64,000 bases of DNA from Rhodovulum sp. ES.010 (GTDB lineage: Bacteria; Pseudomonadota; Alphaproteobacteria; Rhodobacterales; Rhodobacteraceae). Below, piece after piece: positions 447 through 62,440 of the stretch. The stretch lies in the NCBI RefSeq assembly GCF_900142935.1, contig NZ_FSRS01000001.1, forward strand, positions 1,746,001 through 1,810,000, written 5' to 3'. Position 1 is the first letter of the stretch. Each line of letters opens with the position of its first letter. Under the pieces are notes generated by a model. That model searched no databases. It had not been told where the DNA came from and was given only the letters and a program-made list of their open reading frames with translations. A program made the translations under genes and the position numbers.

Positions 447-783
447 CGCCGCCCGGGCCGAGGCGCCGGGACGCGGGCCGCATGTTCCGGCATACGGCCC
501 GCCGCACGCCAGCGCCGCGTGGGCGGGACCTCAACGAAGGGGTATCGTCTGGGATGTCCGCAGGGCGGACGAAGCTGCCGTTGCCCGCATTTAACCCAGA
601 GTCTGCTTTCAGTTTGAACCGTTCAACAAACGGTTCTTTTGGGAGATACGCAAGCGGCAGCTTTGAGCCCGAAGTCACCGACGCAATGTCGCGATGGGGT
701 TCGCCTCCTTGAACTGAAAGTGACCTAAGGGATGGCTCATGTTTGGTTCTAAGACATCGCCTTAAATGTTGAGATGAATTGAA
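447..783. other. Intergenic, no gene recognised
   Basis: The 337 bp between the mtnP stop and the converging low-GC gene show no convincing coding frame on either strand. GC content falls from left to right, approaching that of the neighbouring 784-1899 gene. No clear terminator or promoter was recognised. Confidence 0.5.
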
Positions 784-33947: not shown

Positions 33948-35312
33948 CAGGCTGCTGAAAAACCTCGCTCTGGACGTCGGTTGAGGGACGTGATTCACCC
34001 CTTGGGCGGTTGCCGGAGGGGTTGGGATGCGGGGCGCGGACGAGACGGGCGGGTCGCTGTTCAGCTATGTTGACATCGAGGCGCGGATCCCGGCGCGGCA
34101 TCCGTTGCGGCAGATCCGGCGGGTCGTGAACGAGGCTTTGGCCAGCCTCGATGCCGAGTTCGAGACGCTCTACGCCCCGGAGGGCCGGCCCTCGATCCCG
34201 CCGGAGCGGCTGATCCGGGCGAGCCTTCTACAGATCCTGTTCTCGGTACGCTCGGAGCGGCAGTTGATGGAGCAGATGGATTACAACCTCATGTTCCGCT
34301 GGTTCGTGGGCCTGGGGATCGACGACGCGGTCTGGGTCCCCACCGTCTTCACGAAGAACCGTGACCGGCTGCTGACCACCGACATGGCGCGCAAGGTGAT
34401 GGGCGCGATCCTGGCTCACCGGGAGGTCGCACCGCTGCTGTCAGACGAGCACTTCTCGGTGGACGGCACGCTGATCAAGGCCTGGGCTTCCATGAAGAGC
34501 TTCCAGCCGAAGACCGAGGGCAGCCCGCCCGGCGCGGACGGGCCGGGTGACCCGCCGGGGGACACCGATCAGGATACCAGCCCCGACACCGCCCCTGCCC
34601 AGCCCGAAGCCGAGACCGTCCCGATGCCCAGCCCCAGCCGCCGCCACCGCAACGCCGAAGTCGACTTCCGCGGCGAGAAGCGCTCCAACGCCACCCATGC
34701 CTCGATCACCGACCCCGACGCGCGGCTGTTCCGCAAGTCGCAGGGGACGGGCGCGCTGCTCTGTTACATGGGGCATGCGCTGATGGAAAACCGCAATGGC
34801 TTCGTCGTCCAGGCCGACCTGACCCGCGCCGATGGCCATGCCGAACGCCGCGCCGCGCTCGACATGATCCACCGCCATTCCCCCGGCTCGACCCGCCGCC
34901 TCACGCTGGGCGCCGACAAGGGCTACGACAGCGCAGATTTCGTCGCCGATCTGCGACAGGCCCACGTCACGCCGCATGTCGCCCAGAAGGCCCGACACTC
35001 CGCCATCGACGGCAGAACCACCCGCCACCCCGGCTACGCCCTGTCCCAGACGCGCCGCAAGAAGATCGAAGAGCCCTTCGGCTGGGCCAAGACCGTCGGC
35101 GGCATGGCCCAGACCGTATACCGCGGCCTCGACCGCGTCGCCGCCCGCTTCACCTTCACCATGGCCGCCTGCAACCTCGCCAGACTGCCGAAGCTGCTGG
35201 CCGCCTGAAGCCAAAGGCAGGGCCGAGACCAAGCACACAGAACAGACGACGCCGGCCTCACGGGTGAGGGTCAGGGAAATCCGTCCGGCCGCAAGAGAAT
35301 TTCAGCGGCCTG
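33948..35312 (+). mobile_element. IS5-type insertion sequence, copy 1
   Basis: 1365 bp with inverted ends CAGGCTGCTGAAA (left) and CAGGCCGCTGAAA (right, reversed). The flanks are ATAG on the left and CTAG on the right, so the 4-bp duplication is imperfect. It carries one transposase. An almost identical copy in the opposite orientation lies at 61076-62440. Confidence 0.88.
34027..35208 (+). CDS. IS5/IS1182-type transposase, copy 1
   Basis: 393 residues. An N-terminal DUF772-type domain (PLRQIRRVVNEALASL, PPERLIRASLLQILFSVRSERQLMEQ) is followed by the DDE core: HFSVDGTLIKAWAS, a Pro-rich linker (about 160-205), LGADKGYDSADF, and the C-terminal RKKIEEPFGWAKTVGGM. Differs from the second copy at two residues seen (G versus S near residue 8; Y versus C near residue 338). 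Confidence 0.92.
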   Translation: MRGADETGGSLFSYVDIEARIPARHPLRQIRRVVNEALASLDAEFETLYAPEGRPSIPPERLIRASLLQILFSVRSERQLMEQMDYNLMFRWFVGLGIDDAVWVPTVFTKNRDRLLTTDMARKVMGAILAHREVAPLLSDEHFSVDGTLIKAWASMKSFQPKTEGSPPGADGPGDPPGDTDQDTSPDTAPAQPEAETVPMPSPSRRHRNAEVDFRGEKRSNATHASITDPDARLFRKSQGTGALLCYMGHALMENRNGFVVQADLTRADGHAERRAALDMIHRHSPGSTRRLTLGADKGYDSADFVADLRQAHVTPHVAQKARHSAIDGRTTRHPGYALSQTRRKKIEEPFGWAKTVGGMAQTVYRGLDRVAARFTFTMAACNLARLPKLLAA

Positions 35313-53689: not shown

Positions 53690-54154
53690 TAGCTGACCTC
53701 TCATAGCGTCACCATCTTCGTTCAATCGTCCGATCATAACGGCAAGATTTGCGTGCAAAAGCCGTCGCCGCGCTACACGTGCACAAACTGTCGCCGCGCT
53801 ACAGCCAAGCGCAGACCGCGCAACGGCATAGAACTGATACCCAAATGAGACCCATAGCGGAATAGCACTGCGAGACCTGACAGGCGGCGCGCGCCAAGAT
53901 ATTGTTTTTATTTGCAAAAAGTGGTGCCCGGGGGCGGCATAAACTGTTGTTTTTATTGTAATATGTTGCGGGGCGGTGGGACTTTTTTCTTTCACCATGT
54001 TTATTGGATTTTTCCGGATATGTGTCCCACTTTTCCGATGGGGATTCAGGCCGGAGTTCACTGCTCGGGCCGGTGCCGCATCGCCGCAGCGCCTGGACAT
54101 GACGGCGGCGATCCTTAGGAATGGTGACAGTAAGGAAGATCAATCTGGACGAGT
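53690..54154. other. AT-rich upstream region of the HIT-helicase gene
   Basis: 465 bp. Two copies of a 14-bp direct repeat GTCGCCGCGCTACA lie near 53765 and 53791. From 53900 to 54030 GC is very low for this genome, with two TTGTTTTTATT(G/T) boxes about 46 bp apart and an inverted GTGGGAC...GTCCCAC pair (about 53977 and 54024). A 13-codon ORF (54121-54162, ATG after AGGA) overlaps the GTG of the next gene. It is likely the promoter/leader of the helicase gene. Confidence 0.5.
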
Positions 54155-57004
54155 GTGACTAACCCGCGCCTCACCTGCCCGATCTGCATGCACCGTGAGG
54201 CCGGATTGATCCCCGCCCCTCGGCATGTGCCCGCGTGGGATGATCTGACCGTCCCGGAACAGATGGCGATGCTGGCCGAAGTGGGCACCGCACTTGGTCG
54301 CGGCACGGCTGGTTTCTCTGCCTCATCCGATCACGGCCATTTCCACCTGCGGGAAGCCAGTACGGCGCGTCTGACAACCGGCGGCCGCGATCCGCTTCTA
54401 CCGCTGCTCGCCGAGCGTCTCGACACCGCGCACTCGGTCGACTTGGCAGTTGCCTTCGCCATGGACAGCGGCGTGGCCCTGCTGGAGCCCTGGTTCCGGG
54501 AGCTGCTGGCGCGCGGCGGGCGGCTCAGGATCGTGGTGGGCGACTATCTCGACACGACCGACCCGACCGCCTTGGCCCGTTTGCTGGACCTAGAAGGCGC
54601 GGAGCTCTTCGTGTTCGAAACTGGCGGCCTCAGCTTTCACCCCAAGGCCTGGCTATTCCGTGCCGCCGATGCACGCGGGGCGGCAATTGTCGGTAGCTCG
54701 AACCTGTCTCAATCGGCGCTGACCGATGGTGCGGAATGGAACCTGCATTCCGAAGACGCGGCAGACAGTGTCGGGGTGGCTTTTCAGGACTTGCTGGCAT
54801 GCCCCGAGGTAAAACCGCTGACGGCAGCATGGGTCGATGCCTATGCGAAACGCCGCAGGGCGCGCCCGATGCCCGAATTCACCGCCCGCGTTGTGGCAGA
54901 AGAAGGCCCACCACCGGAGCCGCATACGATCCAGCAGGAGGCGCTGGCGGCGCTTACACAAAGCCGTTCGAACGGCCACCGCGCCGGGCTTGTCGTGCTG
55001 GCCACCGGGCTGGGCAAGACCTGGCTGGCGGCTTTCGACACGATCCGTGCTAGGGCGGGCCGCATCCTCTTCGTCGCCCATCGCGACGAAATCCTAACCC
55101 AAGCCATGGCGGCCTTTCGCAAGGTCCGCCCCGAAGCCAAACTGGGCCGCTACACGGGCACCGAGAAAGAGGCAAATTCAGAAATCCTCTTCGCCTCGGT
55201 TCAGACACTTGGCCGCGTCGGTCACTTGCGCCAATTCGACCGAGACCATTTCGACTATATCGTGGTTGATGAATTCCACCACGCCGCGGCCCGCACCTAC
55301 CAGAAGCTGATCGAGCATTTCACGCCCGGCTTCCTGCTCGGCCTGACCGCTACGCCCGACCGGACGGATGGCGCGGACCTTCTCGGCCTCTGCGGTGAAA
55401 ACCTCGTCTACGAATGCGACCTGTTCCGCGGGATCGACGCAGGACATCTGGCGCCCTTCCACTATTTCGGCGTTCCGGATGACGTGGATTACGCACAGAT
55501 CCCCTGGCGTTCCGGCCAGTTCGACCCCACCGCGCTGGACGCAGCCCTGGCCACCGAGGCGCGGGCGGTAAATGCGTTGGAACAATACCGCAAGCGCGCA
55601 ACCGGCCCAGCGATCGGCTTTTGCTGTTCTATGCGCCACGCCGACTACATGGCGGATTACTTCCGCAACGCCGGTCTGAAGGCTGTTGCCGTCCATTCGG
55701 GCCAAGGCTCCGCCCCGCGGGCGAGCTCCCTCGCAGCGCTTGGTCGCGGCGAGATCGACATCCTCTTCGCGGTCGACATGTTCAACGAAGGCGTGGACGT
55801 GCCCGAGATCGGCACCGTGCTGATGCTGCGTCCCACCGAAAGCGCGATTATCTGGCTGCAACAACTCGGCCGCGGCCTGCGCCGCGTCGAGGGCAAGGTG
55901 CTGCAGGTGATCGACTACATCGGCAACCACCGCAGCTTCCTCACCAAGGTCGCAACCCTTCTGCAGGCCGGCGCAGGCGATCGCTCGATCTCGACCAAGC
56001 TGGACGTGCTTCAGGCCGGTGAGTTCCAAATGCCCCAGGGCTGCGAGATCACCTATGAGCTCGAAGTCATCGACATCCTGCGCAATCTCCTCCGCCCGAA
56101 AGAAGGCGCGGCGGAGCTTGAAGCCTTCTATGTCGATTTCCGGGACCGGACCGGTATCCGCCCCACGGCTGTCGAAGTCTTCCGCAACGGCTTCGACCCC
56201 CGCGCCTCCGGCCATGGCGGCTGGTTCGATTTCGTGCGGGACATGGGCGATCCCTTGCCCGAACGTCCTTTCGCCACTCACGGTCGTCTCTTGGGTGAAT
56301 TGGAACGGCCCAGGGGTTTGTCCCGATCCGCCTTGACCGGACTGCGCGACGTCGTAGCCGGGCGGCAACCGAGCGAAGGCGCGTCAGAGCTTGCCTTCAA
56401 CCCGCACCTGGCTCAGGGCAGCGACGGCTTTCGGTTGGCCCGGCCAGACGCCTCAGGTGAGTTGGAACTGCTTGTGCGCGAGTTGGTCGAATGGCGCCTG
56501 GCGGAAGCGCCCATCGTTCGCGAGGCCGCCGAGGCATCCGCAACCTTTGTCGGCAAGCCACAGGCTCTGGAGCTTTGGCAGCGCTACTACGTGCCGGACA
56601 TCGCCGAGTTCTTTGGCGAAGAGTACAAGCAAAACCTTTGGCGCACCGGGATGAAGGCGCTGCCGAAGAAGAAGATCATGGTGCTTCTAGCCAATGTTTC
56701 GACCCAGGACCTGACCTACGAAAACGCATTCCTCAGCCCGTCACGACTGAAATGGTTCAGCCAAAACCAGACGCGCCAGGACAGCAAGCATGGCCGGATC
56801 ATCAGCGGTGAGGAAGGTCATGAGGTACACCTGTTCATCCGCCGCGGGAACAAGGTGAACGGCAAGGTCAATCCATTCATCTATTGCGGGCAGCCCAGGT
56901 TCGCTGGATGGGAGGGTGAGAGGCCAATCGAAGTCCAATGGGAATTGGCTTCGCCGGCGCCGCGCGAGCTTTGGGCGGAGCTCGGAATTGCAGATCAAGA
57001 TTGA
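54155..57004 (+). CDS. HIT-like / PLD-like / SF2 helicase / DUF3427 fusion protein
   Basis: 949 residues from the GTG at 54155; a TAA at 54131 closes the frame upstream. Residues 1-70 form a compact HIT-like segment: CPIC (8-11), IPAPRHVPAWDDLT and the triad HGHFHL (H60, H62, H64). A PLD-like nuclease half-site follows: H162 and K164 in SFHPKAWLF, with GSSN (180-183). The helicase core has TIQQEAL, Walker A ATGLGKT (283-289), DEFH (372-375), GLTATPDR, and QQLGRGLR. The C-terminal ~160 residues are DUF3427 (LPKKKIMVLLANVST, FLSPSRLKWFSQNQT). Such SF2-PLD-DUF3427 proteins occur in defence islands; a role against phage or plasmid DNA is inferred. It lies between two IS3 elements and next to a type I restriction locus. 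Confidence 0.88.
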   Translation: MTNPRLTCPICMHREAGLIPAPRHVPAWDDLTVPEQMAMLAEVGTALGRGTAGFSASSDHGHFHLREASTARLTTGGRDPLLPLLAERLDTAHSVDLAVAFAMDSGVALLEPWFRELLARGGRLRIVVGDYLDTTDPTALARLLDLEGAELFVFETGGLSFHPKAWLFRAADARGAAIVGSSNLSQSALTDGAEWNLHSEDAADSVGVAFQDLLACPEVKPLTAAWVDAYAKRRRARPMPEFTARVVAEEGPPPEPHTIQQEALAALTQSRSNGHRAGLVVLATGLGKTWLAAFDTIRARAGRILFVAHRDEILTQAMAAFRKVRPEAKLGRYTGTEKEANSEILFASVQTLGRVGHLRQFDRDHFDYIVVDEFHHAAARTYQKLIEHFTPGFLLGLTATPDRTDGADLLGLCGENLVYECDLFRGIDAGHLAPFHYFGVPDDVDYAQIPWRSGQFDPTALDAALATEARAVNALEQYRKRATGPAIGFCCSMRHADYMADYFRNAGLKAVAVHSGQGSAPRASSLAALGRGEIDILFAVDMFNEGVDVPEIGTVLMLRPTESAIIWLQQLGRGLRRVEGKVLQVIDYIGNHRSFLTKVATLLQAGAGDRSISTKLDVLQAGEFQMPQGCEITYELEVIDILRNLLRPKEGAAELEAFYVDFRDRTGIRPTAVEVFRNGFDPRASGHGGWFDFVRDMGDPLPERPFATHGRLLGELERPRGLSRSALTGLRDVVAGRQPSEGASELAFNPHLAQGSDGFRLARPDASGELELLVRELVEWRLAEAPIVREAAEASATFVGKPQALELWQRYYVPDIAEFFGEEYKQNLWRTGMKALPKKKIMVLLANVSTQDLTYENAFLSPSRLKWFSQNQTRQDSKHGRIISGEEGHEVHLFIRRGNKVNGKVNPFIYCGQPRFAGWEGERPIEVQWELASPAPRELWAELGIADQD

Positions 57005-57061: not shown

Positions 57062-57326
57062 ATGGCAACCACGGAGCGGCAAGGACTGATTTCACGCTTT
57101 TTCTCGCGTGTCAGCGACACTGATCGTGACGTGCCTACGACCGAAGGGCCTCCTGCGTCTGGACATGAGGCCTGGGGCGACAATGCAACGCGCTCGGTAA
57201 GTGACTTGGTCAAGTCCGTTCTGAGGCAACCGAGTTGTTTGATTGTCACAGGATACCAGGACTTCCTATCTTCTCTGACAATCTTGCTCGAAACGGTCGA
57301 CAAACTTGACGAGCGCCCAGAAGGCA
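57062..57326 (+). pseudogene. Unknown gene, 3' end removed by an IS3 element
   Basis: 88 codons (MATTERQGLISRFFSRVSD... to ...LDERPEG) then the frame enters the IS3-type element at 57327 and stops at 57340. It begins 57 bp after the helicase gene on the same strand, so it was probably the second gene of that unit. Lower GC than the core genome. No motif was recognised; hydrophobic segment LIVTGYQDFLSSLTILLETV near the cut. Confidence 0.5.
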
Positions 57327-57344
57327 TGACCTGCCACTGATCTT

Positions 57345-58277
57345 TCATCCAGCCGCGACCGGAGCCCGGTTGGTGTTTACGCCAAATGGCGCGGGTTGAG
57401 CAATCGCCCGACGCGCGGAGCTCTCATCTCGCGCAGCGGGTCGGGCGATTGCGGTGGTCAGGGTCTGCGCGTAGTCAGCCGGGGTCTGATAGCCCAAGGC
57501 CGAATGGGGGCGCTCGGTGTTGTAGTCGGCGACCCAGGCGGCGATCAGGTCGCGGGCATGGGCGAGGTTACGAAACAGCGTCTCGTTCAAGAACTCGTCC
57601 CGCATCCGGCCGTTGAAGCTCTCGACAAAGCCATTCTGCATCGGCTTGCCCGGCGCGATGTAGTGCCATTCGATCCGGTTCTCGGCGCACCACTTCAGGA
57701 TCGCGTTCGAGGTCAGTTCCGTCCCGTTGTCCGACACGATCATTCCCGGCTTGCCGCGACGTTCGATCAGCGCCGTCAGCTCCCGCGCGACGCGCCGGCC
57801 GGAGATCGACGTGTCCGGGATCGCGGCGAGGCATTCGCGCGTGACGTCATCGACGATGTTCAGCACCCGGAACCGCCGCCCGCACGCGAACTGGTCATGG
57901 ACGAAATCCAGTGACCAACGGGCATTTGCGCGCGCCTCGACCAGGATCGGGGCGCGGGTGCCGATGGCCTTGCGCCGCGCGCGCCGCTTGCGGACGGTCA
58001 GCCCTTCCTCGCGGTAAAGCCGGTAGATACGGTTGATCCCCGAGGGCTCGCCCTCCCGCCGGAGCAGGACGAAGAGCCGCCGGTAGCCGAACCGCCGACG
58101 CTCGTTGGCAAGCTCCCGCAATCGGCCGCGCAGTTCCGTGTCGGGTGCGCGTTGCGACCGGTAGCGGATCGTCTTCCGATCCGCGCCGGCAATCTGGCAC
58201 GCCCGTCGTTCCGACAGCCCGAACCGGGCCTTCAGATGCGCGACCGCCTCGCGCTTCACGACGGGCGTCACCACTTT
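57345..58277 (-). CDS. IS407-like transposase OrfB
   Basis: About 310 residues beginning [31 protein letters not shown], with the DDE core [27 protein letters not shown], and [17 protein letters not shown], and [12 protein letters not shown] at the end. Read from OrfA by a -1 shift at the A6G run (58274-58280). Confidence 0.9.
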
Positions 58278-58534
58278 TTTGAAACCAGCTCGCGCATCGC
58301 GGCCAGATCCAGCATCTGCTCCGCCAGCAGCTTCTTCAACTTGGCGTTCTCGTCCTCGAGCGCCTTCAGCCGTTTGGCCTCTGACACCGTCATGCCGCCG
58401 TATTTGGCTTTCCAGTTGTAGAACGTCCCCTCCGACATGCCGTGCTTGCGGCACAGATCGGCACACTTCGCCCCGGCCTCATGCTCGGCCAGGATGCCGA
58501 TAATCTGCTCTTCGCTGTATCTCGTTCGCTTCAT
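58268..58534 (-). CDS. IS407-like transposase OrfA
   Basis: 88 residues: [41 protein letters not shown] (helix-turn-helix) and the zipper [24 protein letters not shown]. It ends VSKKW at the slippery A6G. Typical IS407-group OrfA. Confidence 0.9.
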
Positions 58535-58599
58535 TGTCCGTCCCCTCCTTGGGTCGGACTCTAATCGCAGGTGGAGGAAAAATCCCGTGGCAGGTCAAA

Positions 58600-60993
58600 A
58601 GCTGCGACCAGCTCCGGGGCGGGATGGATGCTTCGCTCTACAAGGACTACATCCTCACGCTCCTCTTCGTGAAATATGTCTCCGACCGCGCAGGCGAGCC
58701 CGATGCGCTGATCGAGGTGCCGGAAGGCGCGTCCTTCGCGGACATGAAGGACCTCCGCGAGTCCAAGGCCATCGGCGAAGGCATGGACATGATCATCGCC
58801 CGGATCGCCGAGGAAAACGACCTGAGCGGGGTGATCGACCGGGCCTTCTTCAACGACCCCGAGAAATTCGGGCGCGGGCAGAAGATGATCAACACGCTGA
58901 CCGCGCTGATCAACATCTTCAGCCGGGAAGAGCTGAACTTCTCGAAGAACCGCGCCGATGGCGACGATATCCTCGGCGACGCCTACGAATACCTGATGCG
59001 CAATTTCGCGACCGAGGCGGGCAAGTCCAAGGGGCAGTTCTACACCCCGGCCGAGGTCTCGCGCGTCGTGGCGGCCGTGGCGGGCGTCAGCCGCGCCACC
59101 AGCCCGAAACAGTCGGTCTATGACCCGACCTGCGGCTCGGGGTCCCTGTTGCTCAAGGCAGCGGAAACCGCCCGCGTGCCGATCTCGATCTTCGGGCAGG
59201 AGATGGACATCGCCACCCGAGGCCTCGCTCGCATGAACATGATCATGCACAACCGCGCCACCGCCGAGATCGCGCAGGGCGACGTGATCGCCGAGCCGCA
59301 TTTCCTGGCCGATGCCCAGACCCTCCAGACCTTCGATTTCGTGGTGGCCAATCCGCCCTTCTCCGCCAAGGCCTGGGCCTCCGGCCTGACAGAGGACACG
59401 AAATACGGCCGGTTCGACGATGGCGAGCCGCCCGCCAAGAACGGCGATTTCGCGTTCCTGCTGCACATCCTCGCCTCGATGAAGGCGACCGGGTCGGGTG
59501 CGGTGATCCTGCCCCATGGCGTTCTGTTCCGCGGCAATGCCGAGGCCCGGCTGCGGGAAAGGATCCTGAAACGCGGCTATATCAAGGGCATCATCGGCCT
59601 GCCGGCCAACCTGTTCTACGGCACCGGCATCCCCGCCTCGATCATCGTCCTGGACAAGGCCGAGGCAAGCGACCGCCGCCCGGTCTTCATGATCGACGCC
59701 TCCAGGGGCTTCACCAAGGACGGCAACAAGAACCGCCTGCGGGAACGCGACATCCACAAGATCACCGATGCCTTCACCCGCGGCCAGGAAATGCCGGGAT
59801 ATTCCCGCCTCGTCCCCTTCGACGAGATCGCGCGGAACGAGTTCAACCTGAACATCCCCCGCTACATCGACGCCTCCGAGCCCGAGGATCTGCAGGATAT
59901 CACCGCCCACCTGCAGGGCGGCGTGCCCGACCGCGACATCGATGCGTTGCGCAATTTCTGGGATGTCATGCCCAGCCTGCGCCCCACGCTCTTCGGGCCG
60001 AACCCGCGGGCGGGCTATTCCGACCCGCTGATCGCCCCCGACGCGGTGCGCGCCACCATCCGGAACCACCCCGATTTCGCGGCCTTCCGCGCGCAGGTCA
60101 CCGAAATCCTGGATGGCTGGGTGCAGGCCAACACCCCCGCGCTGATGAGCATCGAACAGGGCGATCACCCCCGCGACCTGATCCACGCCATTGCCGAGGA
60201 CATGCTGGCCCGGTTCGCCGCCGCCCCCCTGATCGACCGCTACGAGGCCTATCAGCGCCTGATGACCTATTGGGCCCAGACCATGCAGGACGACGTGTTC
60301 ATCATCGCGGGCGGCGGCTGGCTGGCGGCGCGCGACCTGCGCGAGGCCCGCAAGGAGGTCAAGGACGGCAAGACGAAATGGCTGGAGGACGGCGACCTGA
60401 CCGTGAACAAGGTGCGCCTTGTGGCCGATGTCATCCCGCCCGCGCTGATCACCGCGCGCTTCTTCCCTGACCTCAAGGATGCGTTGGACCAGGCCACCGC
60501 CCGGGCCGAAGAGCTGGGCCGCGAGATCGAGGAGCTGGCCGAGGAACACGGCGCCGAGGGCGGGCTGCTGGCCGAGGCCCTGACCGACACCGGCAAGCTG
60601 ACCGCCGCCTCGGTCAAGGCGCGCGAGGCGTTGGGCGAGGCCGATGCCGAGGAACGCCCGCTGCTGAAACAGGCCGCCAGGCTGCTGAAGGCCGAGGCCG
60701 CGGCGAAAAAGGCGGCGAAAGAAGCCGAGGCCAGGCTGACCGAGGCCGTGCTGAAAACCTATCCCGAATTGACCGAGGACCAGATCCGCACCCTTGTCGT
60801 GCAGGACAAGTGGCTCGCCGATATCGCCGCCGCCATCGGGGCCGAGGTGGAGGCCAGGACCGAGGCCCTGACCGCCCGGGTGCGCGTGCTGACCGAACGC
60901 TATGGCCAGACCCTGCCGCAGATCATGGACGATCTGGCCGCGCTGGAGGCCCGGGTGGCCGGGCATCTGGCGGCGATGGGGGTGGCGGGATGA
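58600..60993 (+). CDS. hsdM: Type I restriction-modification methyltransferase subunit, 5' end lost
   Basis: About 797 residues. It starts directly at the IS3 end with SCDQLRGGMDASLYKDYILTLLFVKYVSD; family members have about 15 more residues before this, so the original start is gone. The first ATG is at 58624, and a TTG inside the IS (58534) could also give a fused start. The N6-adenine methylase core is intact: DPTCGSGSLL (about residue 175) and NPPF (about 251). A long coiled-coil tail (about 630-740) is present, as in the larger HsdM group. Overlaps hsdS by 4 bp. Methylation needs an S subunit, which is broken here. Confidence 0.88.
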   Translation, partial: SCDQLRGGMDASLYKDYILTLLFVKYVSDRAGEPDALIEVPEGASFADMKDLRESKAIGEGMDMIIARIAEENDLSGVIDRAFFNDPEKFGRGQKMINTLTALINIFSREELNFSKNRADGDDILGDAYEYLMRNFATEAGKSKGQFYTPAEVSRVVAAVAGVSRATSPKQSVYDPTCGSGSLLLKAAETARVPISIFGQEMDIATRGLARMNMIMHNRATAEIAQGDVIAEPHFLADAQTLQTFDFVVANPPFSAKAWASGLTEDTKYGRFDDGEPPAKNGDFAFLLHILASMKATGSGAVILPHGVLFRGNAEARLRERILKRGYIKGIIGLPANLFYGTGIPASIIVLDKAEASDRRPVFMIDASRGFTKDGNKNRLRERDIHKITDAFTRGQEMPGYSRLVPFDEIARNEFNLNIPRYIDASEPEDLQDITAHLQGGVPDRDIDALRNFWDVMPSLRPTLFGPNPRAGYSDPLIAPDAVRATIRNHPDFAAFRAQVTEILDGWVQANTPALMSIEQGDHPRDLIHAIAEDMLARFAAAPLIDRYEAYQRLMTYWAQTMQDDVFIIAGGGWLAARDLREARKEVKDGKTKWLEDGDLTVNKVRLVADVIPPALITARFFPDLKDALDQATARAEELGREIEELAEEHGAEGGLLAEALTDTGKLTAASVKAREALGEADAEERPLLKQAARLLKAEAAAKKAAKEAEARLTEAVLKTYPELTEDQIRTLVVQDKWLADIAAAIGAEVEARTEALTARVRVLTERYGQTLPQIMDDLAALEARVAGHLAAMGVAG

Positions 60994-61075: not shown

Positions 61076-62440
61076 CAGGCCGCTGAAATTCTCTTGCGGC
61101 CGGACGGATTTCCCTGACCCTCACCCGTGAGGCCGGCGTCGTCTGTTCTGTGTGCTTGGTCTCGGCCCTGCCTTTGGCGTCAGGCGGCCAGCAGCTTCGG
61201 CAGTCTGGCGAGGTTGCAGGCGGCCATGGTGAAGGTGAAGCGGGCGGCGACGCGGTCGAGGCCGCGGTATACGGTCTGGGCCATGCCGCCGACGGTCTTG
61301 GCCCAGCCGAAGGGCTCTTCGATCTTCTTGCGGCGCGTCTGGGACAGGGCGCAGCCGGGGTGGCGGGTGGTTCTGCCGTCGATGGCGGAGTGTCGGGCCT
61401 TCTGGGCGACATGCGGCGTGACGTGGGCCTGTCGCAGATCGGCGACGAAATCTGCGCTGTCGTAGCCCTTGTCGGCGCCCAGCGTGAGGCGGCGGGTCGA
61501 GCCGGGGGAATGGCGGTGGATCATGTCGAGCGCGGCGCGGCGTTCGGCATGGCCATCGGCGCGGGTCAGGTCGGCCTGGACGACGAAGCCATTGCGGTTT
61601 TCCATCAGCGCATGCCCCATGTAACAGAGCAGCGCGCCCGTCCCCTGCGACTTGCGGAACAGCCGCGCGTCGGGGTCGGTGATCGAGGCATGGGTGGCGT
61701 TGGAGCGCTTCTCGCCGCGGAAGTCGACTTCGGCGTTGCGGTGGCGGCGGCTGGGGCTGGGCATCGGGACGGTCTCGGCTTCGGGCTGGGCAGGGGCGGT
61801 GTCGGGGCTGGTATCCTGATCGGTGTCCCCCGGCGGGTCACCCGGCCCGTCCGCGCCGGGCGGGCTGCCCTCGGTCTTCGGCTGGAAGCTCTTCATGGAA
61901 GCCCAGGCCTTGATCAGCGTGCCGTCCACCGAGAAGTGCTCGTCTGACAGCAGCGGTGCGACCTCCCGGTGAGCCAGGATCGCGCCCATCACCTTGCGCG
62001 CCATGTCGGTGGTCAGCAGCCGGTCACGGTTCTTCGTGAAGACGGTGGGGACCCAGACCGCGTCGTCGATCCCCAGGCCCACGAACCAGCGGAACATGAG
62101 GTTGTAATCCATCTGCTCCATCAACTGCCGCTCCGAGCGTACCGAGAACAGGATCTGTAGAAGGCTCGCCCGGATCAGCCGCTCCGGCGGGATCGAGGGC
62201 CGGCCCTCCGGGGCGTAGAGCGTCTCGAACTCGGCATCGAGGCTGGCCAAAGCCTCGTTCACGACCCGCCGGATCTGCCGCAACGGATGCCGCGCCGGGA
62301 TCCGCGCCTCGATGTCAACATAGCTGAACAGCGACCCGCTCGTCTCGTCCGCGCCCCGCATCCCAACCCCTCCGGCAACCGCCCAAGGGGTGAATCACGT
62401 CCCTCAACCGACGTCCAGAGCGAGGTTTTTCAGCAGCCTG
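61076..62440 (-). mobile_element. IS5-type insertion sequence, copy 2
   Basis: 1365 bp, same length and nearly the same sequence as the copy at 33948-35312, in the opposite orientation. Both flanks are CTAA (61072-61075 and 62441-62444), a perfect 4-bp YTAR-type duplication. It separates the hsdS stub from the hsdR 3' end. Confidence 0.93.
61180..62361 (-). CDS. IS5/IS1182-type transposase, copy 2
   Basis: 393 residues, identical to copy 1 except two residues noticed (S for G near residue 8, C for Y near 338). The DDE motifs HFSVDGTLIKAWAS, LGADKGYDSADF and EEPFGWAKTVGG are intact, so the element is probably still active. Confidence 0.92.
   Translation of the reverse strand: MRGADETSGSLFSYVDIEARIPARHPLRQIRRVVNEALASLDAEFETLYAPEGRPSIPPERLIRASLLQILFSVRSERQLMEQMDYNLMFRWFVGLGIDDAVWVPTVFTKNRDRLLTTDMARKVMGAILAHREVAPLLSDEHFSVDGTLIKAWASMKSFQPKTEGSPPGADGPGDPPGDTDQDTSPDTAPAQPEAETVPMPSPSRRHRNAEVDFRGEKRSNATHASITDPDARLFRKSQGTGALLCYMGHALMENRNGFVVQADLTRADGHAERRAALDMIHRHSPGSTRRLTLGADKGYDSADFVADLRQAHVTPHVAQKARHSAIDGRTTRHPGCALSQTRRKKIEEPFGWAKTVGGMAQTVYRGLDRVAARFTFTMAACNLARLPKLLAA

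Follow-up and report, generated by a model that had tools for sequence, protein, structure and literature searches.

A probable SauUSI-type Type IV restriction endonuclease with a reduced N-terminal HIT domain in Rhodovulum sp. ES.010

The window analyzed here is the whole 64,000-nucleotide stretch of the Rhodovulum sp. ES.010 genome at positions 1,746,001 to 1,810,000 of contig NZ_FSRS01000001.1 (forward strand; positions below are counted from its first letter). Its subject is a gene for a 949-amino-acid (aa) protein, a single intact open reading frame (ORF) with a GTG start (54155-57004, forward strand), followed by a truncated gene, an IS3-family insertion sequence (IS) and an hsdM gene. 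An initial annotation, made from the sequence without database searches, had divided the protein into four parts, a HIT-like triad, a phospholipase D (PLD)-like nuclease half-site, a superfamily 2 (SF2) helicase, and DUF3427, and had proposed a little-described defense system. Here, we report that the protein most likely works alone as a Type IV restriction endonuclease of the SauUSI type, dependent on modified bases, and that its first ~70 residues are a reduced HIT domain, probably noncatalytic and presumably zinc holding. The PLD, SF2, and DUF3427 parts of the four-part chain thus stand, as does the HIT ancestry of its start, but not the triad as first assigned. Articles are cited by PubMed Central number.

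Pfam found ResIII (3.4e-37), Helicase_C (5.8e-11), and DUF3427 (1e-15; residues 802-943) in the 949-aa protein, with PLDc_2 below threshold (21.3 bits; cut-off, 27) and no HIT domain match, and the top PADLOC match was mREase_IV ("Type IV methyl-directed restriction enzyme"; 2.4e-113). The best solved relative by single-sequence search was Protein Data Bank (PDB) entry 7clg (953 aa; E, 1.5e-87); a profile of 76 homologues (alignment A1) matched it at an E value of 2.8e-145 over chain residues 9 to 918 of 953, and by this match residues ~73 to 949 form a SauUSI-type core. The PDB listing title is just "Putative helicase"; we take the entry to be SauUSI, which fits because M829, Y831, F841, I842, D858, and W868 of the SauUSI paper sit at their stated numbers in the alignment. 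SauUSI is built from a PLD dimer (H119/K121) and an SF2 ATPase; its residues 618-805 form a helical coupler, and its residues 806-953 a recognition domain of the SRA fold (PMC7913695). The Rhodovulum protein has the same order, the HxK and helicase residues, and a similar length. Its PLD nuclease, N-terminal to the ATPase, has the HxK (H162/K164) and GSSN (180-183) first noted, with H162 kept in 112 and K164 in 111 of 112 short-form proteins, and the key residues of Walker A, DEFH, TAT, and QxGRGLR are invariant across the 76 sequences of A1 (the Walker lysine, initially numbered K287, is K288). For the DUF3427/SRA-like C-terminal domain, the Pfam match is joined by the 7clg alignment and by W867, invariant in A1; DUF3427 has been viewed as a likely reader of modified DNA (PMC3874153, PMC7159879).

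The protein differs from SauUSI at three residues, R169 replacing the HxK(x)4E glutamate (E126), M833 the pocket residue Y831, and N857 D858, and in its ~72-aa HIT-derived start, for which SauUSI has no room because the profile match begins at chain residue 9. NgoAVII and CglI likewise combine a PLD nuclease with an SF2 ATPase in restriction (PMC7913695) but in separate subunits, with a B3 recognition domain and another architecture. A VIA comparison of the full-length protein put SF2 ATPases on top, with 7clg absent among the 50 matches listed, and was counted neither way. The helicase part also matches profiles and structures of RadD, UvrB, and XPB, as would be expected if the protein were a RadD/UvrB-like helicase for DNA repair or housekeeping that carries an accessory nuclease; however, NCBIfam scores fall far under the cut-offs (RadD, 96 bits against 720), the near full-length match is 7clg, and the gene is sporadic (14 of 198 genomes from the family have relatives) and is met on plasmids too (relatives in 21 records of a plasmid collection at E <= 1e-40, of which 5 cover 80% or more of the query and 2 reach 60% identity). 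A repair helicase is therefore a very unlikely explanation.

For the SauUSI-type enzyme, we propose, by analogy with SauUSI, that a modified base, probably cytosine in a modified form, would be flipped out by the SRA-like domain, that this would switch on the SF2 ATPase, which would move the dimer along DNA, and that the paired PLD domains would cut through H162 and K164 from both chains. Which base the 949-aa enzyme targets is a guess. In SauUSI, the contact of D858 with the flipped cytosine is itself a proposal from a model (PMC7913695); Asp is replaced at that position by N857 here, and the contact, being proposed, does not define the family. Among the 76 proteins of A1, 63 have Asp and 13 Asn, the latter being the window protein, ten close relatives (71 to 94% identity), P0030, and P0042. 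Pocket rows extracted by regular expression were readable in 48 cases (9 Asn, 36 Asp, and 3 Glu, two of which look like mis-hits), and the nine rows of the window clade (the window and loci L005-L008, L043-L045, and L048) all have Asn, with W-F-S-Q.

PvuRts1I has Asn217 at the place of the base-contacting Asp of UHRF1/SUVH5 (PMC4157451; also PMC4027163). Its family, dependent on 5-hydroxymethylcytosine (5hmC) or glucosylated 5hmC (5ghmC), thus also has Asn in an SRA-like pocket (PMC4157451) but a PD-(D/E)XK nuclease, and the equivalence of N857 runs through the alignment to SauUSI D858. In TagI, a carboxylate is credited with the preference for cytosine over thymine (PMC6212794). It is therefore a fair prediction that the Asp-to-Asn change alters or relaxes which modified base is chosen, and we read it as a change in specificity and not as exclusion from the family. 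Loss of function is disfavored, since all 13 Asn proteins of the 76 keep the pocket Trp and PvuRts1I uses Asn. The direction of any change is uncertain because PvuRts1I N217D retained activity on 5hmC and lost that on 5-methylcytosine (5mC) and cytosine (PMC4157451). The host genome has C5-methyltransferase matches at two places; a 5mC-cutting enzyme would therefore need to tolerate host methylation.

The predicted structure of residues 1 to 78 has the HIT alpha/beta fold, with HIT proteins at ranks 1 to 44 of its best 50 matches, and together with relatives bearing a full HIT domain this bears out the HIT-like start first suggested. Its shortness is not an annotation cut because the frame opens just 7 codons upstream of the GTG (956 aa stop to stop); a start-site artifact is also excluded by the close clade, where stop-to-stop frames are 954 to 957 aa in seven of eight tree members (in the eighth, L043, the frame is open further upstream). 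A search with residues 1 to 85 yielded 21 proteins from 226 candidates, every one of which the full-length search had listed as well. Lower among the best 120 of 7944 full-length matches are six proteins of 1082 to 1115 aa with a Pfam HIT match, and P0118 (1108 aa) has a complete HIT domain (Pfam, 1.1e-21). With that HIT part as the query, 658 of 3940 candidate proteins matched at E <= 1e-3. Such full-HIT PLD-SF2-DUF3427 proteins, from Planctomycetota, Rhizobiales, Actinomycetota, and others, share the core, the N-terminal placement of HIT, and, in 22 of 27 loci, the CxxC...RH...HxH residues; they differ in having an intact triad and nucleotide loop, against the reduced HIT of the 949-aa protein.

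Alignment of short and full forms showed that the short form lacks the stretch that separates CxxC from the RH motif and also a second one, preceding the triad, which is the N-x-G..GQT segment (nucleotide/phosphate loop). It also placed H62, H64, and R66 at the first, second, and third triad positions, that of H64 presumably being the HIT nucleophile. The initial annotation had taken HGHFHL as the triad; the motif is present at 60 to 65, but a triad of H60, H62, and H64 is excluded because intermediates such as THFHIT and GHFVL put the first conserved His at H62 in the alignment, the only evidence used for this point, leaving H60 outside. At the DNA level, position 60 is His in just 13 of 33 short forms.

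The DNA-level counts, independent of start-site error, covered 33 short-form and 27 full-form loci classed by profile score; from them and from the tree below, 13 loci that repeat others had been removed by name. Of the 33 short forms, 32 keep C8 and C11, 32 keep H24 (one has Cys there), all 33 keep H62, and 28 keep H64; none has His at the third triad position, where 30 have Arg. All 27 full forms have the complete triad; Cys-Cys-His occur together in 22, all three are absent in 4, and one is cut off. A protein-level count (236 proteins, 3 without an anchor; the "full" class was chosen by HxHxH, so its 121/121 triad is by construction) gave, for 112 short proteins, C8 at 65 of 66 residues present, C11 at 65/65, and H24 at 77/77, with H62 in 111, H64 in 63 (lost in 49), and the third position His in 3 and Arg in 62. 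C8, C11 (the CxxC of the initial annotation), H24, and H62 are also invariant in alignment A2, 62 hand-picked homologues that reach CxxC and hence a more selected set than either count. These four positions we take to be the zinc ligands of GalT and of zinc-bearing HIT proteins, and we take them to form a putative zinc site; a single metal site fits because three ligand residues vanish jointly in four full forms.

The 949-aa protein thus lacks both the complete H-x-H-x-H triad (R66) and the nucleotide/phosphate loop of an active HIT enzyme and differs from HIT superfamily members (Fhit, Ap4A phosphorylase, and HinT) in lacking two segments and the third His. A working or nucleotide-binding HIT coupling nucleotide sensing or hydrolysis to restriction, close to the nucleotide-sensing or signal-processing step first envisaged, would be suggested by the presence of H62 and H64, the HIT-like model of residues 1 to 78, the 27/27 complete triads of the full-HIT relatives, the third-position His of 3 short proteins in 112, and the HIT protein ThsC of the Thoeris type II defense system (PMC8565338), although ThsC is encoded by a separate gene and is a mere lead on HIT in defense. 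With the third His in 0/33 short-form loci, H64 lost in 5/33 loci and 49/112 proteins, the CxxC-RH stretch and the N-x-G..GQT loop gone, and no Pfam HIT match, such a function is distinctly improbable here; in the full-HIT relatives, a nucleotide-sensing step may exist. The reduced domain, in which two segments and the third triad His have been lost and a Cys-Cys-His-His site, presumed to hold zinc, has been kept, probably serves the adjacent nuclease dimer as a structural or regulatory element and does not hydrolyze nucleotides; dimer or linker control as its role is a guess.

A tree of 91 PLD-helicase cores (rows of at least about 480 core positions, quick LG+G4, midpoint root) put 31 short-HIT rows on one side of one branch (SH-like approximate likelihood ratio test [SH-aLRT], 93). 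A full-HIT Phenylobacterium row joins this group (98), which adjoins full-HIT rows of Planctomycetota, Acidobacteriota, Verrucomicrobiota, Rhizobiales, and others, and the tree fits a single HIT reduction. A separate set of 26 rows (support, 100), mostly Beta- and Gammaproteobacteria, has no HIT match and has a class I methyltransferase, which is part of the protein itself in 20 and is encoded right upstream in the other 6 (Pfam evidence displayed for L104, L105, L110, L053, and L027). A sister group comprises 14 short-HIT rows, 9 of which have this methyltransferase as a neighboring gene.

Several other arrangements were seen among SauUSI-like genes. In many cases, the class I methyltransferase (~200 aa, Methyltransf_25/TehB-like) is joined to the SauUSI-like protein or encoded by the gene just before it (L053:9320-9910, L055, L056, L010-L012, L094, L095, L097, L108, L115, and L119). 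A Peptidase_S24 (LexA-like) match stands directly before DUF3427 in L104, L105, L110, L094, and L102 (sub-threshold in L102), in proteins of Beta- and Gammaproteobacteria, Geomonas, and Mycobacterium, hinting at control by self-cleavage. An SprT-like metallopeptidase lies directly upstream of full-HIT genes in L067 (8944-9579), L081 (9051-9557), and L080 (9066-9590), by Pfam for the first two and by similarity for the third.

Table 1. Features of the SauUSI-type locus, in window coordinates
Feature	Position	Strand	Basis or remark
AT-rich leader, common to L019, L020, and L048 (of eight aligned)	53917-54154	+	Alignment; putative promoter
Exact 16-nt copy of tRNA-Phe(GAA) 3' end, same genome	53922-53937	.	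Possible integration-site remnant
SauUSI-type Type IV restriction endonuclease gene, GTG start, 949 aa	54155-57004	+	ORF, Pfam, PADLOC, 7clg match
Degenerate "mini" HIT domain, ~residues 1-72	54155-54370	+	Alignment, conservation, structure prediction
Mini-HIT candidate zinc ligands C8, C11, H24, H62	54176, 54185, 54224, 54338	+	Zinc role inferred
Mini-HIT H64, HIT nucleophile position (R66, third triad position)	54344	+	Alignment
PLD-family nuclease domain, ~residues 73-240	54371-54874	+	Approximate boundaries; H162 (54638), K164, GSSN 180-183
SF2 helicase-like ATPase, ~residues 250-603	54902-55963	+	Approximate boundaries
SF2 motifs: Walker A GLGKT 285-289 (K288), DEFH 372-375, TAT 398-400, QLGRGLR 570-576			
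Helical coupler, ~residues 604-802	55964-56560	+	Analogy with SauUSI 618-805; approximate boundaries
DUF3427/SRA-like target recognition domain, ~residues 803-949	56561-57001	+	Pfam, 7clg alignment
Recognition-domain residues N857 (SauUSI D858 position) and W867 (SauUSI W868)	56723, 56753		
5' stub (~88 codons) of 1146-1155-aa gene, probably second PLD-SF2 helicase	57062-57326	+	Comparison with nearest relatives
IS3-family insertion sequence cutting partner gene (transposase, 57345-58466, minus strand)	57327-58597	-	Pfam, terminal repeats

The "cut small gene" initially seen behind the 949-aa gene is indeed cut but is not small: what is left is the 5' end of another large gene (Table 1). Most near relatives carry the restriction enzyme gene next to this second gene, probably a PLD-helicase, of which the copy here has been destroyed: a full-length gene of 1146 to 1155 aa lies directly downstream in seven of the eight nearest relatives (L005, L006, L007, L008, L043, L044, L045, and L048; L084, a 91% relative reaching its contig end after residue 349, was left out). 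Profile matches of the partner are weak (PLDc_2, 0.0024, and DEAD, 0.0095, both sub-cut-off; PLD models DpdK, 1.6e-6, and DrmC, 1e-5), and HxK, GSAN, GAGKT, DESH, and GLGR motifs were found by eye; it is probably a second PLD-SF2 helicase. In L007/L021, it runs across the record ends of NZ_CP069374.1, a plasmid of 16.6 kb on which SIR2, ATPase, HNH, Fic, and MobC genes are found as well. A search of the Rhodovulum genome for the partner found residues 2 to 86 (the stub) and no other part.

The two genes may form a functional unit, of which the window copy would therefore be disabled or altered. This reading is compatible with a SauUSI-type enzyme, and we hold it as a tentative possibility. It draws on the partner directly downstream in 7/8 nearest relatives (across the record ends in L021) and on the remnant of residues 2 to 86 in the window genome; against it, 5 of the 10 partner-bearing genomes (of 198 in the family) have no SauUSI-like match at 1e-40, and one (G179) has its match on another contig, the very close relative L006/L020 is without the partner, and SauUSI acts alone (PMC3874153). 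By these comparisons, the partner is not obligatory. Decay of the restriction gene itself into a nonfunctional remnant would suit the IS-type transposase genes on both sides and the destroyed partner, but the frame is intact, the catalytic residues are kept, and the best listed relative is 94% identical over the whole length; we judge decay unlikely. In a separate 19-kb stretch (L136), a stand-alone HIT-like ORF (2007-2996; 51 bits, HIT profile) lies ~4.7 kb from a partner-type gene, and no SauUSI-like match was found in that stretch.

The type I locus first reported as adjacent reduces to one hsdM gene (58598-60993); no hsdS or hsdR was found among the neighboring ORFs scanned, the rest of the genome not having been searched for them, and a complete working type I locus nearby is excluded on that scan. 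The vicinity of hsdM looks made by rearrangement because the right edge of the IS3 element abuts its first codons and its HsdM_N match starts at profile position 8. An IS5-family transposase gene (61180-62361) follows hsdM and has a counterpart at 34027-35208, ~26 kb away on the opposite strand; both encode 393 aa, with near-identical Pfam scores.

Upstream, the low GC (guanine-plus-cytosine) content ascribed to the leader was borne out (47% at 53880-54060; 63.6% in the gene). The shared leader starts at the 16-nt tRNA-Phe copy, a possible remnant of an old integration site. Neighbors of relatives were scanned at 22 loci, covering 133 of 141 listed ORFs (ORFs of <110 or >1300 aa were not listed; the eight left out were four partner genes, one methyltransferase, one long ORF, and two SprT genes, from L067 and L081), with family listings of the first 25 of 53 and the first 25 of 141 families. 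PADLOC models matched at E <= 1e-10 (raw counts) include mads_3 (4), SoFic (3), BrxD (2), type I restriction (1), and a DpdF/PsyrT-like helicase (1), along with ordinary genes and phage-type integrases. A role in defense, as initially suggested, thus agrees with the SauUSI-type restriction core and with the SIR2, HNH, Fic, BREX, and type I genes near some relatives (raw counts). Among the best 80 of 210 related viral stretches, the top one was 62% identical over residues 207 to 502, and the others listed were at most 42% identical. A protein of ~1700 to 1770 aa (RecQ/DpdF/PsyrT-like DEAD helicase plus UvrD helicase) is encoded near several SauUSI-like genes (L020:2916-8045, L026:11968-17268, L053, L057, and L081), and L028:3802-11610 is a very long open frame (2602 aa) lying beyond the window end.

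The system first called little described is partly known. Its core is that of SauUSI (PMC7913695), and JGI automatic protein names already give the three parts; the HIT, methyltransferase, and partner attachments form the variant part, and no description of relatives bearing them was found in the open-license literature searched. In the portions available, PMC3874153 has no word starting "HIT" and PMC7159879 no "HIT domain." MutT homologues lie beside SauUSI homologues in Streptococcus (PMC7641849), perhaps an echo of the nucleotide-hydrolase theme. More speculatively, there may be a large SauUSI-type branch, of which the searches turned up no description, with a second enzyme in the restriction cycle (an intact HIT nucleotidyl hydrolase/transferase or, in Beta- and Gammaproteobacteria, a class I methyltransferase, fused or encoded by the next gene), and the 949-aa protein would have dispensed with the HIT step, keeping a mini zinc module, changing its pocket from Asp to Asn for a different or wider modified base (perhaps 5hmC or glucosyl-5hmC), and recruiting a second PLD-helicase; we consider this less likely than not. 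An intact HIT might then, for example, strip adenosine monophosphate from DNA ends, so that the invader's ligase cannot mend the cuts.

A major obstacle that foreign DNA meets in Staphylococcus aureus is SauUSI (PMC7913695). Here, the SauUSI-type engine turns up in several phyla with accessory enzymes built in, and the conversion of an enzyme domain into an apparent metal-binding module can be traced. If these readings are true, the proteins would provide test cases for the regulation of translocating modified-base restriction enzymes and for the contribution of HIT and methyltransferase parts to phage restriction, and the natural Asp/Asn variants would inform how SRA-like pockets choose modified bases.

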